Origin: an uncultured Elusimicrobiales bacterium
GTDB taxonomy: Bacteria; Elusimicrobiota; Elusimicrobia; Elusimicrobiales; Elusimicrobiaceae
Direction of reading: 5' to 3'
Assembly (NCBI GenBank): GCA_944325055.1
Contig: CALUYP010000024.1
Location: forward strand, 1 to 47,544
DNA: 47,544 nucleotides
The translations under genes were made by a program, and so were the position numbers. This document shows, in pieces, positions 2,432-34,656 of the stretch. Each line of letters begins with the position of its first letter. Position 1 is the stretch's first letter. The notes under the pieces were generated by a model. The model had not been told where the DNA came from and made no database searches. It was given only the letters and a program-made list of their open reading frames with translations.

Positions 2432-2468
2432 AAAAAAGATTCGCCCGTTTAAAAAAGAGCGAATCTTT
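2432..2468 (-). terminator. Rho-independent terminator after pdxA
   Basis: The arms AAGATTCGC and GCGAATCTT pair around a 14-nt loop. On the minus strand the hairpin is followed by TTTTTT. It lies 87 nt beyond the pdxA stop and just upstream of the birA promoter, so it should end the Mfd-PdxA transcript. Confidence 0.75.
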
Positions 2469-2554
2469 ATGTTTTTGAAATTATTTTTTCAACCGGATTG
2501 AAAAGATTTTTTGTTATTTCAGATAAACGGTACGAGCCATCTTTTAGAGTATAC

Positions 2555-3490
2555 TTAAAAAATATCCGGCGCTTTACTCCGCTTAGCCGCAAATAAAATG
2601 GCCGCCATCATGCTTTGGGCGTTTGCCTTGTGTTTGCCTGCAATATCAAAAGCGGTTCCATGAGTCGGAGAAGTGCGCAAAAATTTAAGGCCGGCCGTGA
2701 TGTGTACGATGGGATCCCGGGCCGCTAATTTAAGACCCAGCAACGCTTGATCGTGGTACATACATAACAATCCGTCATATTGCCCTTGCGCATGGGAAGA
2801 CCATAAACTGTCTGCCGGGAAAGGGCCGTTGGCGTTGATTCCTTGTCTTCGCAAAAGACGGACCGCCGGCTCTAGAACCAGCTTTTCTTCCACACCAAAT
2901 TTGCCGTTGTCTCCGGCGTGCGGATTCAGTGCACATAATGCAATGCGAGGCCGCTTTATACCCAGACGGTTTAATGCCTTCGAAAAATGCCGGCACGCCT
3001 GACAGACCCGCGTACGGGTAATCAAATCCGGTAAGTCTGAGATAGCAAAATGCTCGCTTACCAAAGCGCAGCGGATCCGTCCGCTGACAAACATCATAAG
3101 TCCTTCTTTTCCCGCCCGCTCCCGCAGTAATTCCGTGTGTCCAATATAGGGGATCTTTCCTAACGCCCAGCTTTGTTTTGAAATCGGTGCGGTGACCAAC
3201 GAACAACCTGTTTTTAATGCCAGTTTGCATCCCAGTTCTACTGCTTTAAAAGAAGACAAGCCGCCCGCTTCCGTCGGTCCATGCGGAGCATCTTGCAGGC
3301 ATTCGCAGGTATCCATACTGACCAGCCGTGCCAGGCGTTCTGAAAATCCCGCACGGAAAAGAGAACACGGCTCCCCAATGACAATCGGAGAACAAGCGTG
3401 CTGTACTAAAGGGCTCTTTAGCGCTTTAACGGTTACTTCCGGGCCGACCCCGAGCGGGTCTCCCGCAGTGATAAATACAACAGGTTTCAT
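2555..3490 (-). CDS. pdxA: 4-hydroxythreonine-4-phosphate dehydrogenase (pyridoxal 5'-phosphate synthesis)
   Basis: A 311-residue protein from the ATG at 3490. It begins MKPVVFITAGDPLGVGPEV, the PdxA phosphate/NAD-binding start, and has TAPISK, IGHTE, the metal-ligand stretch ALNPHAGDNGKFG, DSLW, MYHDQ and the C-terminal RTSPTHGTAFDIAG. PdxA oxidises 4-phosphohydroxy-threonine to the precursor joined by PdxJ to make pyridoxine phosphate. An in-frame TTG 27 nt upstream is possible but has no better ribosome site, and the ATG matches the family N-terminus. It is last in a minus-strand run after two SurA-type genes, about 98 nt from the previous stop. A hairpin terminator follows. Confidence 0.93.
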   Translation of the reverse strand: MKPVVFITAGDPLGVGPEVTVKALKSPLVQHACSPIVIGEPCSLFRAGFSERLARLVSMDTCECLQDAPHGPTEAGGLSSFKAVELGCKLALKTGCSLVTAPISKQSWALGKIPYIGHTELLRERAGKEGLMMFVSGRIRCALVSEHFAISDLPDLITRTRVCQACRHFSKALNRLGIKRPRIALCALNPHAGDNGKFGVEEKLVLEPAVRLLRRQGINANGPFPADSLWSSHAQGQYDGLLCMYHDQALLGLKLAARDPIVHITAGLKFLRTSPTHGTAFDIAGKHKANAQSMMAAILFAAKRSKAPDIF

Positions 3491-32063: not shown

Positions 32064-32089
32064 TTTCTATCTTGTATCAAGGAGGCTGT

Positions 32090-32884
32090 ATGAAAAAAAT
32101 ATTGACTGCACTTTTTTTGTGTGCATTGGCCGTACCTAGCTATGCCCAGCTTTCGGCAACAGATCCCTTTTTTATGTTGCAAAAAGACGGTATGTTATTG
32201 GATAGCGAATTGTCTTACAACAACAATTATGAAGGGGGAGACGGCGCTAAACAGTGGCTGTTAAAAGAAACTTTCCGCTATGGATTAGATGCACGCTGGG
32301 AAGTATTTGGATCGCTGGGATTGGCGAATTTGAAAATGGACGGCGGTTACAGCGAAACGGGATTAACAGACCCTGATTTAGGGGTAAAATACCGGGCCAG
32401 CGAAAATTTGGCCAATCGGGATTTATTGTTGGATCTGAGCGCGCATTTTAGTCCTTCTTTGTTTGATTCTCCTTGGGATAATCATCCGGACGGCGTAGCC
32501 AAAGGTTCTACCGATTTCGGCGTGAAAGCGATGGTCGGCCGAGAAGCCCGTTCTTACGAAGAATGGACGTGGGGCGGTTTTGCCGCGCTGGATTTCATTG
32601 GCAGTACAGATCAAGGAAAGAGCGCTACGGATTTCTACTTGGGTGGAGTAGGCAAGTATTATCTGGATGATTTAAATTCCATTGATGCCGAAGCCAGCTT
32701 GGGCTTTTTGGGAAAACGTTTTGACGACGGAGGAAGCGATACCTCCCTGCGTTTGGCCGGCGGGTATAGCCGTGTGCTGACTTCCGATCTGGATCTGAGC
32801 GGCTTGTTAGGTTTTGCCACGCACAGCGCGGATGGCGCCAAAACAGAAATCTTTCTAGCGGCTCGTTTGCGCTGGCGCATTTAA
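32090..32884 (+). CDS. Outer-membrane beta-barrel protein (porin/transporter-like)
   Basis: 264 residues from the ATG at 32090, with AAGGAGG about 6 nt upstream. The signal peptide is MKKILTALFLCALAVPSYAQ. The mature part is made of alternating beta-strands (LDSELSYNNN, FRYGLDARWEVFGSLGLANL, DLGVKYRA, LDLSAHFSP) and ends in LAARLRWRI, suitable for barrel insertion. No specific transporter family is clear, though the strand order resembles proteins of the MetA-pathway phenol-degradation type. It is a single gene between two terminators. Confidence 0.8.
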   Translation: MKKILTALFLCALAVPSYAQLSATDPFFMLQKDGMLLDSELSYNNNYEGGDGAKQWLLKETFRYGLDARWEVFGSLGLANLKMDGGYSETGLTDPDLGVKYRASENLANRDLLLDLSAHFSPSLFDSPWDNHPDGVAKGSTDFGVKAMVGREARSYEEWTWGGFAALDFIGSTDQGKSATDFYLGGVGKYYLDDLNSIDAEASLGFLGKRFDDGGSDTSLRLAGGYSRVLTSDLDLSGLLGFATHSADGAKTEIFLAARLRWRI

Positions 32885-32901
32885 AACTGGATATATGTTA
32901 C

Positions 32902-32932
32902 AAAAAACGCTCCGGATAACGGAGCGTTTTTT
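32902..32932 (+). terminator. Terminator after the beta-barrel gene
   Basis: AAAAAACGCTCCG and CGGAGCGTTTTTT pair around GATAA, 17 nt after the stop. It works in both directions. Confidence 0.9.
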
Positions 32933-33087
32933 GTTTGTTGTGAAAACCCCCAGCTAGGCCGGAGATATTTCTGCTTTCCAAAAGGATAGTATTTTTTCAT
33001 TTTTCAAAGAAATTATACGAGATGAAATCTTTTATTGAGAGTCTTTTTTAATGGTCGGAAGAATCAAAAAAAAGTATGAAAAAGGCG

Positions 33088-33256
33088 GTGTAGCCTAAAG
33101 GAATCGTAAGATCGGGTAGTAAGTCGGGGGCCAGGGCTCGGCCTGCCGTTTTGTAAGAGTGCGACAAAGCAGAAACAGTGTGGCTTAAACCAATCGTATT
33201 AACGGGCATAGAGTCGGGAGGCCAAGCTTTGGCCCGGCAAGGGGGTTGTTTTGTTT
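33088..33256. repeat. Two imperfect ~75-nt direct repeats, each with a GC-rich hairpin, upstream of the pilin gene
   Basis: Copy A begins GTGTAGCCTAAAGGAATCGT at 33088 and copy B begins GTGTGGCTTAAACCAATCGT at 33178, 90 nt apart. About 30 of the first 41 positions match. Both then run through AGTCGGG into a hairpin: GGCC-AGGGCTC-GGCC in A, GGCCAA-GCT-TTGGCC in B (33220-33234). Both end near GTTTTGT. B is directly followed by the T13 tract. The 470-nt gap (32885-33352) has no credible gene. Confidence 0.6.
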
Positions 33257-33274
33257 TTTTTTTTTTGATACACT
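33246..33274 (+). promoter_or_regulatory. Candidate pilin promoter with a T13 homopolymer in the spacer
   Basis: TTGTTT (33246-33251) and TACACT (33269-33274) are 17 nt apart. The spacer contains 13 consecutive T (33254-33266), the longest homopolymer I noticed in the window. Change in T number would alter spacer length. Confidence 0.45.
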
Positions 33275-33352
33275 GCTCCTAGCATTGATTTTTAGGCAAC
33301 GATGAACAGAAGAAGGACTCAGCCTTTAAATCGGCTTGCTAAGGAGAGAATG

Positions 33353-33817
33353 ATGAAGAAGGGTTTTACATTGATAGAATTATTGGTTGTAGTATTGATT
33401 ATAGGAATATTGGCGGCGATTGCATATCCGCAATATGAAAAAGCGGCAGAAAAAGCACGTTTTTTAGAAGGGCTTACTTTAGTACGAACGATTGGGGAAG
33501 CAAATAGAGCGTATTATTTAGCCAATGGAAAATATGCAGCCCAAATAAGCGATTTAGATATTACCATTCCCGGGCAATTGATTACGGGGATTTTTTATGA
33601 TAGTAAATGGTTTTGGGTGGCGGCTGGGACAGGAACCATTGCTGAACTTCATAGAAAGCCCATGTGGCAATCTTATCGTTTATACATGCATACAAATGGA
33701 ACAATATCTTGCTATTGCAGCAATTCCGATAAAAAAGAAGAAGCGTTAGGGGAATATCTTTGTTCCAGTTTTGGCAAAAAACAGCCGAACAGTAATTGCG
33801 TATATATTATTAGATAA
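33353..33817 (+). CDS. Type IV pilin-like protein (lone, PilE-type leader)
   Basis: 154 residues from the ATG at 33353, 6 nt after GGAG; an adjacent ATG at 33350 and an in-frame ATG at 33302 exist. The leader MKKG is followed by FTLIELLVVVLIIGILAAIA with Glu5, the signature cut and methylated by prepilin peptidase. The C-terminal part has YYLANGKYA, IAELHRKPMW and cysteines in SCYCSNS, YLCSSFGKK and NCVY that may pair. It stands alone between terminators rather than in a pilus operon. Elusimicrobia are known to carry many such solitary pilin-like genes. The preceding region has a T13 promoter and hairpin repeats. Its function in a pilus, adhesion or secretion is unknown. Confidence 0.88.
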   Translation: MKKGFTLIELLVVVLIIGILAAIAYPQYEKAAEKARFLEGLTLVRTIGEANRAYYLANGKYAAQISDLDITIPGQLITGIFYDSKWFWVAAGTGTIAELHRKPMWQSYRLYMHTNGTISCYCSNSDKKEEALGEYLCSSFGKKQPNSNCVYIIR

Positions 33818-34041: not shown

Positions 34042-34656
34042 ATGAAAAGGATTTTGATTTCCGGCGTATTTTTGTTAATATTTTCTTCTTCCTTATTCTC
34101 TCAGAGTTACCGCGCGCAGGATTATTATACGAAAGAAAAACAGGATTTCAGCGGTTTGACCCGTTGGGAGATTTCTGCCGGTTTTAAAGGATCTTCCGGA
34201 CAAGTGCGTGATTTTTTTGGGCAAAATTTATCTCAAGGGGAATATGGTTTAGAGATGAGGTTTTTGTATTCGCTTACGGAGTGGTTTTCTTTCGGAGTGG
34301 AGGGGATGGTCTCTTTTCCTTTTAAACAAGATGTTTCGCTGGATGATTATAAAACGCAAAGCTTAGCCGCTTTGGTTAAACTCACTTTTACTCCGCAGTC
34401 CAGCCCCCGTGCGTATCTTTTGCTTGGGATGGGAGAAGCGTATAAAGAAGCGCAGTATTTCGATAGTTGGAAGTATACGGCGCAGGTTTCTTATTTAACG
34501 TTTGGTTGGGGGATAGAAACAGATATATCTGGCGCGTGGTTTGGCGGGTTGGAGTTGAGGGGGATATACAATTTGGATCTGCGGGAGACGGATTATTTTT
34601 CTTTTGTACGCCGTTGGGAAGGCGCGGTGCATTTGCGGACAGGAATACGCTTTTAA
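34042..34656 (+). CDS. Secreted outer-membrane beta-barrel protein, unknown function
   Basis: 204 residues. The signal peptide is MKRILISGVFLLIFSSSLFSQ. The mature protein is strand-rich with aromatic girdles (WEISAGFKGSSG, YGLEMRFLYSLTEWFSFGVEG, YLTFGWGIETDISGAWFGGLELRG) and ends HLRTGIRF, a typical terminal Phe for barrel assembly. It looks like an OmpA/OmpW-sized 8-strand barrel, but no family is certain. Its stop overlaps the stop of the convergent amidase gene by two bases, so no terminator lies between. Confidence 0.75.
   Translation: MKRILISGVFLLIFSSSLFSQSYRAQDYYTKEKQDFSGLTRWEISAGFKGSSGQVRDFFGQNLSQGEYGLEMRFLYSLTEWFSFGVEGMVSFPFKQDVSLDDYKTQSLAALVKLTFTPQSSPRAYLLLGMGEAYKEAQYFDSWKYTAQVSYLTFGWGIETDISGAWFGGLELRGIYNLDLRETDYFSFVRRWEGAVHLRTGIRF

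Follow-up and report, generated by a model that had tools for sequence, protein, structure and literature searches.

Hairpin-ended repeat arrays upstream of dispersed type IV pilin genes in uncultured Elusimicrobia: a candidate module of pilin contingency loci

The R1 repeat family and its terminal hairpin

Upstream of a type IV pilin gene in an uncultured Elusimicrobiales bacterium lie two diverged direct repeats, each running into a GC-rich hairpin. What are these repeats, and what do they do ahead of a pilin? The initial annotation of the window (the whole stretch of 47,544 nucleotides analysed here) had offered a duplicated structured RNA, a site for moving or exchanging pilin cassettes, or a regulatory leader. 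The copies at 33088 and 33178 are identical at 30 of 41 nt (73%) with an offset of 90 nt, against a best pair of 25/41 in 25 dinucleotide shuffles of the region, and run as described into GC hairpins, GGCCAGGGCTCGGCC (33129-33143) and GGCCAAGCTTTGGCC (33220-33234); an ungapped repeat search did not return the pair. Searched with blast against its own genome, 33060-33270 matched 13 times on 9 contigs, for the most part at their ends. An nhmmer family profile, which both window copies had helped to build, recovered the first at E=2e-6 and the second at E=4e-29. On the forward strand, copy 1 is degenerate and occupies 33085-33143 (model match 33082-33144), and copy 2 is full length at 33145-33234 (model match 33146-33235, 98.8 bits). 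We conclude that the two window copies form a small array, in part decayed, of a family of repeats that we call R1; the observation is confirmed as real, and is larger in extent than first noted.

The R1 unit of ~90 nt comprises a conserved core of ~75 nt and a terminal GC hairpin of about 15 nt, and successive units abut in arrays of one to five, with up to five in tandem on one contig of the window's own genome. Among 104 units (89 distinct) the hairpin sequence varies and pairing is maintained: versions include GGCCAAGCTTTGGCC, GCCCAGGCTCTGGGC, GCACCGGCTCGGTGC and GGGGCGGCTCGCCCC, and pairs often change from G-C to C-G or from A-U to C-G. The hairpin positions covary, with pairing in 80% of cells versus 61.5% (sd 1.7; maximum 67% in 1000) in column shuffles, a figure to be read as a comparison and not as a probability, the rows being related to each other; sliding the columns by 1-3 positions gave at most 57%. 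The rest of the unit behaved differently from a structured RNA: RNAalifold returned no consensus fold across the 104 units, their 5' 76 nt folded no better than shuffles (mean z -0.2), and whole-unit RNA folds and alignment folds revealed no conserved structure besides the terminal hairpin. What survives of the structured-RNA proposal is a duplicated hairpin element tied to pilins; structure beyond the short terminal hairpin found no backing in RNAalifold or the shuffles. Nor does R1 belong to a known RNA family, in agreement with the initial annotation: Rfam gave no match at gathering score and chance-level matches only at a permissive threshold.

R1 is confined to one genus among the genomes tested. 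A sequence-only model built from 18 own-genome units found it in 8 of 37 genus genomes, with 21 copies in the window's own genome, 70 in G006 (rising to 96 in a more sensitive single-genome search), 40 in G023, 16 in G020, 15 in G011, 10 in G013, two in G028 and one in G034; the 24 genomes from other genera of the order had none. Six further genomes added G177, with 91 copies; the other five had none, two of them belonging to a sister genus and one being already negative in the first screen. Overall, R1 occurs in 9 of about 40 genus genomes tested and nowhere else tested. These genomes are mostly MAGs, one per species, and the repeats lie at contig ends, making the copy numbers lower bounds. 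Searched against a named genome collection, the exact core pattern matched only MAG records labelled uncultured Elusimicrobiales or uncultured bacterium. It matched no viral contig, and on this ground we rejected a phage origin.

Many arrays carry a second element, b, between their R1 units. Element b is ~200 nt long and folds as a single long hairpin (DNA z -7.6), the arms of which, judged by eye, appear to change together between copies. It was present in all five R1-bearing genomes searched; of eight R1-free genomes seven lacked it, and the eighth, G010, gave three weak matches. Element b lies beside R1 at the ends of most of own-genome contigs C4, C22, C25, C30, C77, C1 and C64; because the assembly breaks at b and R1, further pilin loci are probably missing from this genome. 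At five loci (L081, L089, L102, L106 and L076) a segment of about 100 nt, beginning TTGTTCCCTATTRCGTAAGCACCGT, separates the last R1 unit from the promoter. One array, at G006 L089 (6036-6292), places three R1 units 38 nt upstream of a glycerophosphodiesterase-like gene and not a pilin.

A candidate T-run promoter between array and pilin

The window pilin gene (33350-33817, forward strand; product beginning MMKKGFTLIELLVVV) has a ribosome-binding site, AAGGAG, at 33341-33346 and matches Pfam N_methyl PF07963 and NCBIfam TIGR02532 above cut-off. The prepilin signal was recovered by both Pfam and NCBIfam in this pilin and another, and by Pfam in two more. R1 does lie upstream of other solitary pilin genes: in the contexts retrieved from five relatives, a solitary type IV pilin stands on the same strand behind most arrays. 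These loci are scattered over the chromosome between unrelated genes, and 3' of the pilins we found no repeat matching the array, only short terminator-like hairpins and syntenic flanks. The window pilin is itself flanked by two secreted or outer-membrane-like proteins (32072-32884 and 34042-34656); the 270-aa protein has no Pfam or NCBIfam match, and the 204-aa protein has only a sub-threshold OMP beta-barrel match.

Between array and pilin lies a uniform segment: TTGAYTYG, a T run, then GATAAATTTTG or GATACACTG. It yields the promoter-like pattern TTGAYTYG-T(8-14)-GATAMA, with putative hexamers that could be read as a sigma-70-type TTGACT, a 16-nt spacer at T12 (17 nt at T13), and TAAATT or TACACT. 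The window holds a corresponding candidate at 33246-33274 on the forward strand, with TTGTTT (33246-33251), a 17-nt spacer and TACACT (33269-33274), assigned from sequence alone by its position and form, which are those seen at other pilin loci. Most of its spacer is a run of 13 T (33254-33266, forward strand), the sole homopolymer longer than 8 in the window. Its hexamers are far from consensus, and a generic promoter scan did not report the site. Pilin leaders fall into two classes. In class A 7 nt separate the -10 from the start codon, which would leave the mRNA almost without a leader; in class B, which includes the window pilin and has the same leader at own contig C13, a longer 5' UTR carries a ribosome-binding site. 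Class A leaders (L090 and L096, for example) contain a palindrome, GATAAATTTTG-N7-CAAAATTTATC, overlapping the -10 and start codon, which at L115 and L121 of G015 becomes GATACATTTTG...CAAAATGTATC, with both sides changed; it could be an operator or a start-site hairpin.

The T run sets these promoters apart. Of the 65 T runs of at least 9 in 455 kb of locus sequence, selected for its nearness to these sites, 64 lay inside the promoters. Most matches have runs of 8 to 14 T. The length is not constant from locus to locus, and one syntenic pair has T10 against T12; 12 is the strong mode, so the spread among loci is modest. Spacer homopolymers are a classic design in the promoters of phase-variable surface genes, and it is on this likeness that we read the T-run promoter as a candidate phase-variable promoter and suggest phase variation of the pilins.

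The promoter is more widespread than the array. The pattern occurs in 23 of 41 genus genomes, at up to 56 sites per genome, and also in a sister genus, and a reversed-pattern control gave no match in the genus and isolated single matches elsewhere in the phylum. Two sister-genus genomes, G067 and G074, have 23 and 27 T-run promoters but lack R1, which makes the promoter system either older than the array or wider in distribution. In R1-free genomes the same promoter mostly has a pilin behind it and typically follows a neighbouring gene and its terminator. Where both are present, the last R1 unit usually ends 2-23 nt before the -35 (range 2 to more than 100 nt). A matching promoter follows 40 of 56 R1 clusters of G006 at no more than 600 nt, and no R1 unit was detectable at 15 of its 55 promoters; some of the promoter misses are near-matches of the pattern, such as TTGACGCG. 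In G177, a held-out genome that took no part in forming the idea, a unit lies at most 121 nt upstream of 19 of 25 listed promoters.

These arrangements speak against the regulatory leader of the initial annotation. In the window both copies precede the promoter-like TTGTTT-17-TACACT (33246-33274), so that transcription of the pilin would be expected to begin beyond them, and a promoter-like sequence likewise lies downstream of the array at the pilin loci examined. Together with its presence without an array in R1-free genomes, this argues that the R1 array would be an optional module upstream of the promoter and not a leader of the pilin mRNA.

Could the array instead act on transcription from outside? 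Its core is unstructured yet strongly conserved, and it sits near the -35 in fixed orientation, as would be expected if tandem cores bound a protein that activates or silences the pilin promoter. A distance to the promoter that varies from 2 to more than 100 nt, unit numbers from one to five, and the many promoters of the same class without any unit make such a binding site very unlikely. The hairpins suggest another role: the terminal hairpins, the last of them together with TTGAYTYG and the T run, might terminate read-through from the neighbouring gene, leaving the pilin dependent on its own switchable promoter. The hairpin directly 5' of a T-rich stretch, the compensatory changes that conserve its pairing, and a terminator scan that placed sites at 33128-33144 and 33230-33248 (three in the region versus 1.1 in shuffles) are all consistent with insulation of this kind. 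We nevertheless consider it unlikely: neighbouring genes have their own terminators (32900-32934, for example), no T tail follows the internal units, and insulation does not account for the conserved unstructured core. Moreover, upstream genes at array loci lie about equally on either strand, with no enrichment of co-directional neighbours, and so there is no bias to sites needing insulation.

A third possibility is that R1 and b serve no pilin function and are REP- or MITE-like repeats, accumulated where intergenic regions tolerate insertion and recombine often. The patchy distribution inside one genus, tandem growth and degenerate copies, the long hairpin of b, the optional presence of R1 at pilin loci and the clusters without a downstream promoter match would all suit a selfish or passive repeat. 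Tolerance alone, however, hardly explains why the units concentrate on one strand a few nt upstream of pilin promoters, and we found no mobiliser, the Y1 transposase being absent from the R1-rich G006, G023 and G020. We therefore judge a purely passive origin improbable.

Turnover and orientation of pilin loci

Pilins at syntenic sites with well-conserved neighbours are often non-orthologous. One genome can have another pilin there, or the same pilin lacking the array and promoter that accompany it elsewhere, or no locus at all. The clearest pair is G006 L094 and G020 L103, where an array of about 330 nt is 100% identical and the flanks are about 86-90% identical. Identity reaches into the T run (T10 versus T12), beyond which stand a different promoter class and an unrelated pilin, before flank identity resumes. 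At the etfA site, the window's own genome (contig C46, L040) has a pilin without array or T run. G023 carries its ortholog (65% identical), with another leader, behind an array and a T11 promoter; in G006 four units and T12 precede a pilin that is not the same. Synteny and alignment identified an empty counterpart in the window (2446-2561) of the array, promoter and pilin locus L093 of G006. At the window's own site we found no pilin, unit or promoter in the flanks read from G034, G020, G011, G023, G006 and G028, of which the G023 flank reaches the next conserved gene and the other five cover part of the interval. These differences and empty sites show that modules and cassettes come and go, and we regard turnover of pilin loci as well supported by the comparisons.

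Whether the array takes part is a separate matter. Homology borders fall at the promoter and in the conserved pilin N-terminus, and several blocks common to loci begin at -3 to 0 of the promoter. The array is common to loci with different pilins and homology stops at its border, for which reason we rank an exchange role first, with insulation, a selfish repeat and a binding site as serious competitors, and R1 may mediate the turnover. The proposal that the repeats serve to move or exchange pilin cassettes thus draws support from non-orthologous pilins at syntenic sites and a homology break at the promoter; a dedicated recombination site would go beyond these findings, and we found no recombinase linked to the R1 array. 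A tyrosine recombinase beside arrays on own contig C51 and at G023 L075 proved to be the same syntenic gene, apparently of ordinary Xer type by its domains, and we treated its position as a coincidence.

Pilin loci also share an orientation. At 43 of 44 array loci the array-forward strand is G-rich, local coding being about equal on both strands, and in genomes where R1 is rare or absent 20 of 20 loci follow the same rule. Strands were mixed on none of 39 contigs in G006, G023 and G020 and on none of 37 in the held-out G177; on G096 contig 1, promoters are on the minus strand at negative skew and on the plus strand at positive skew. The G-rich strand rule and its agreement with skew indicate that pilin loci run with the replication fork, and practically all of them would be co-directional with it. 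Because array-free loci obey the rule as well, the array is not its cause.

A candidate system of pilin contingency loci

We propose, with about even confidence, that R1 arrays are the upstream module of dispersed pilin contingency loci, with T-run switching and a role in exchange. By sequence each locus follows one plan: R1 units ending in hairpins, in some cases accompanied by element b, lead into a promoter-like segment with a T-run spacer, and one pilin gene comes next. Slippage in the T run would alter the -35/-10 spacing and turn each pilin on or off. Less certainly, the co-oriented repeats and hairpins may supply homology or break points at many loci, and array-plus-promoter modules and pilin cassettes may in this way move between loci and strains. 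The same promoters and the same pilin turnover occur in many genomes without R1, so R1 is needed for neither. A bolder version, which we think rather doubtful, is that R1 arrays are a cis element of a new kind: hairpin-ended repeats which, through their shared orientation to the fork, would promote replication-linked slippage of the adjoining T run and strand exchange among dozens of pilin loci, giving a combinatorial repertoire that is both swappable and phase-variable.

The design is reminiscent of promoter-spacer contingency loci such as Neisseria fetA, porA and opc, Bordetella fim and Mycoplasma vlp, where a homopolymer between -35 and -10 of surface-protein genes varies in length between loci. 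Here too a homopolymer lies between -35-like and -10-like hexamers, as far as these can be assigned. The pilin loci differ in having a T run where those have G or C, in numbering dozens of dispersed single-pilin loci per genome, and in their strict co-orientation with replication and, in some species, an upstream hairpin-repeat array. Simple-sequence contingency loci are reviewed more generally in PMC4235727.

Other systems resemble R1 in part. Neisseria pilE/pilS antigenic variation, with a G-quadruplex upstream of pilE (PMC3547852), likewise pairs a cis DNA element upstream of a pilin promoter, the orientation of which matters, with pilins of conserved N-terminus and variable C-terminus. Unlike in that system, every pilin examined behind an array is a complete gene that has a promoter of its own, with no silent promoterless partial copies among them, and a G-quadruplex motif was absent from the window array and present in 1 of 35 array regions on each strand. 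REP/BIME elements with RAYT are also short hairpin-bearing intergenic repeats in small tandem arrays with many copies per genome; the R1 unit differs in its ~90 nt, conserved non-hairpin core and tie to pilin promoters, and the Y1 transposase (PF01797) is absent from R1-carrying G011 and G013 as well as from G006, G023 and G020. Integron attC arrays share co-oriented ~90-nt repeats with hairpin potential beside exchangeable genes, whereas R1 units abut without a gene between them and their loci are chromosome-wide. The initial annotation had recognised no attachment-site consensus, and indeed the core-site pair RYYYAAC/GTTRRRY, in attC order, occurs in none of the 104 units. R1 fits none of the signatures of known RNA families, integrons, RAYT or G-quadruplexes.

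Taken together, the loci appear to form a hitherto undescribed system by which an uncultured group of Elusimicrobia would switch and swap its surface fibres. Titles and abstracts on Elusimicrobia combined with pilin, type IV pili or phase variation, the scope of our literature search (subscription papers lay outside it), describe no such system. R1 and b break assemblies at pilin loci, and pilin repertoires would consequently be under-counted. The fork-facing rule, which holds with or without arrays, offers a testable clue to the way in which homopolymer switching or cassette insertion depends on replication. If our proposal is true, small-genome Elusimicrobia, which have scarcely been studied in the laboratory, use as many as about 56 separately switchable loci for surface variation, most of those examined being single pilins.
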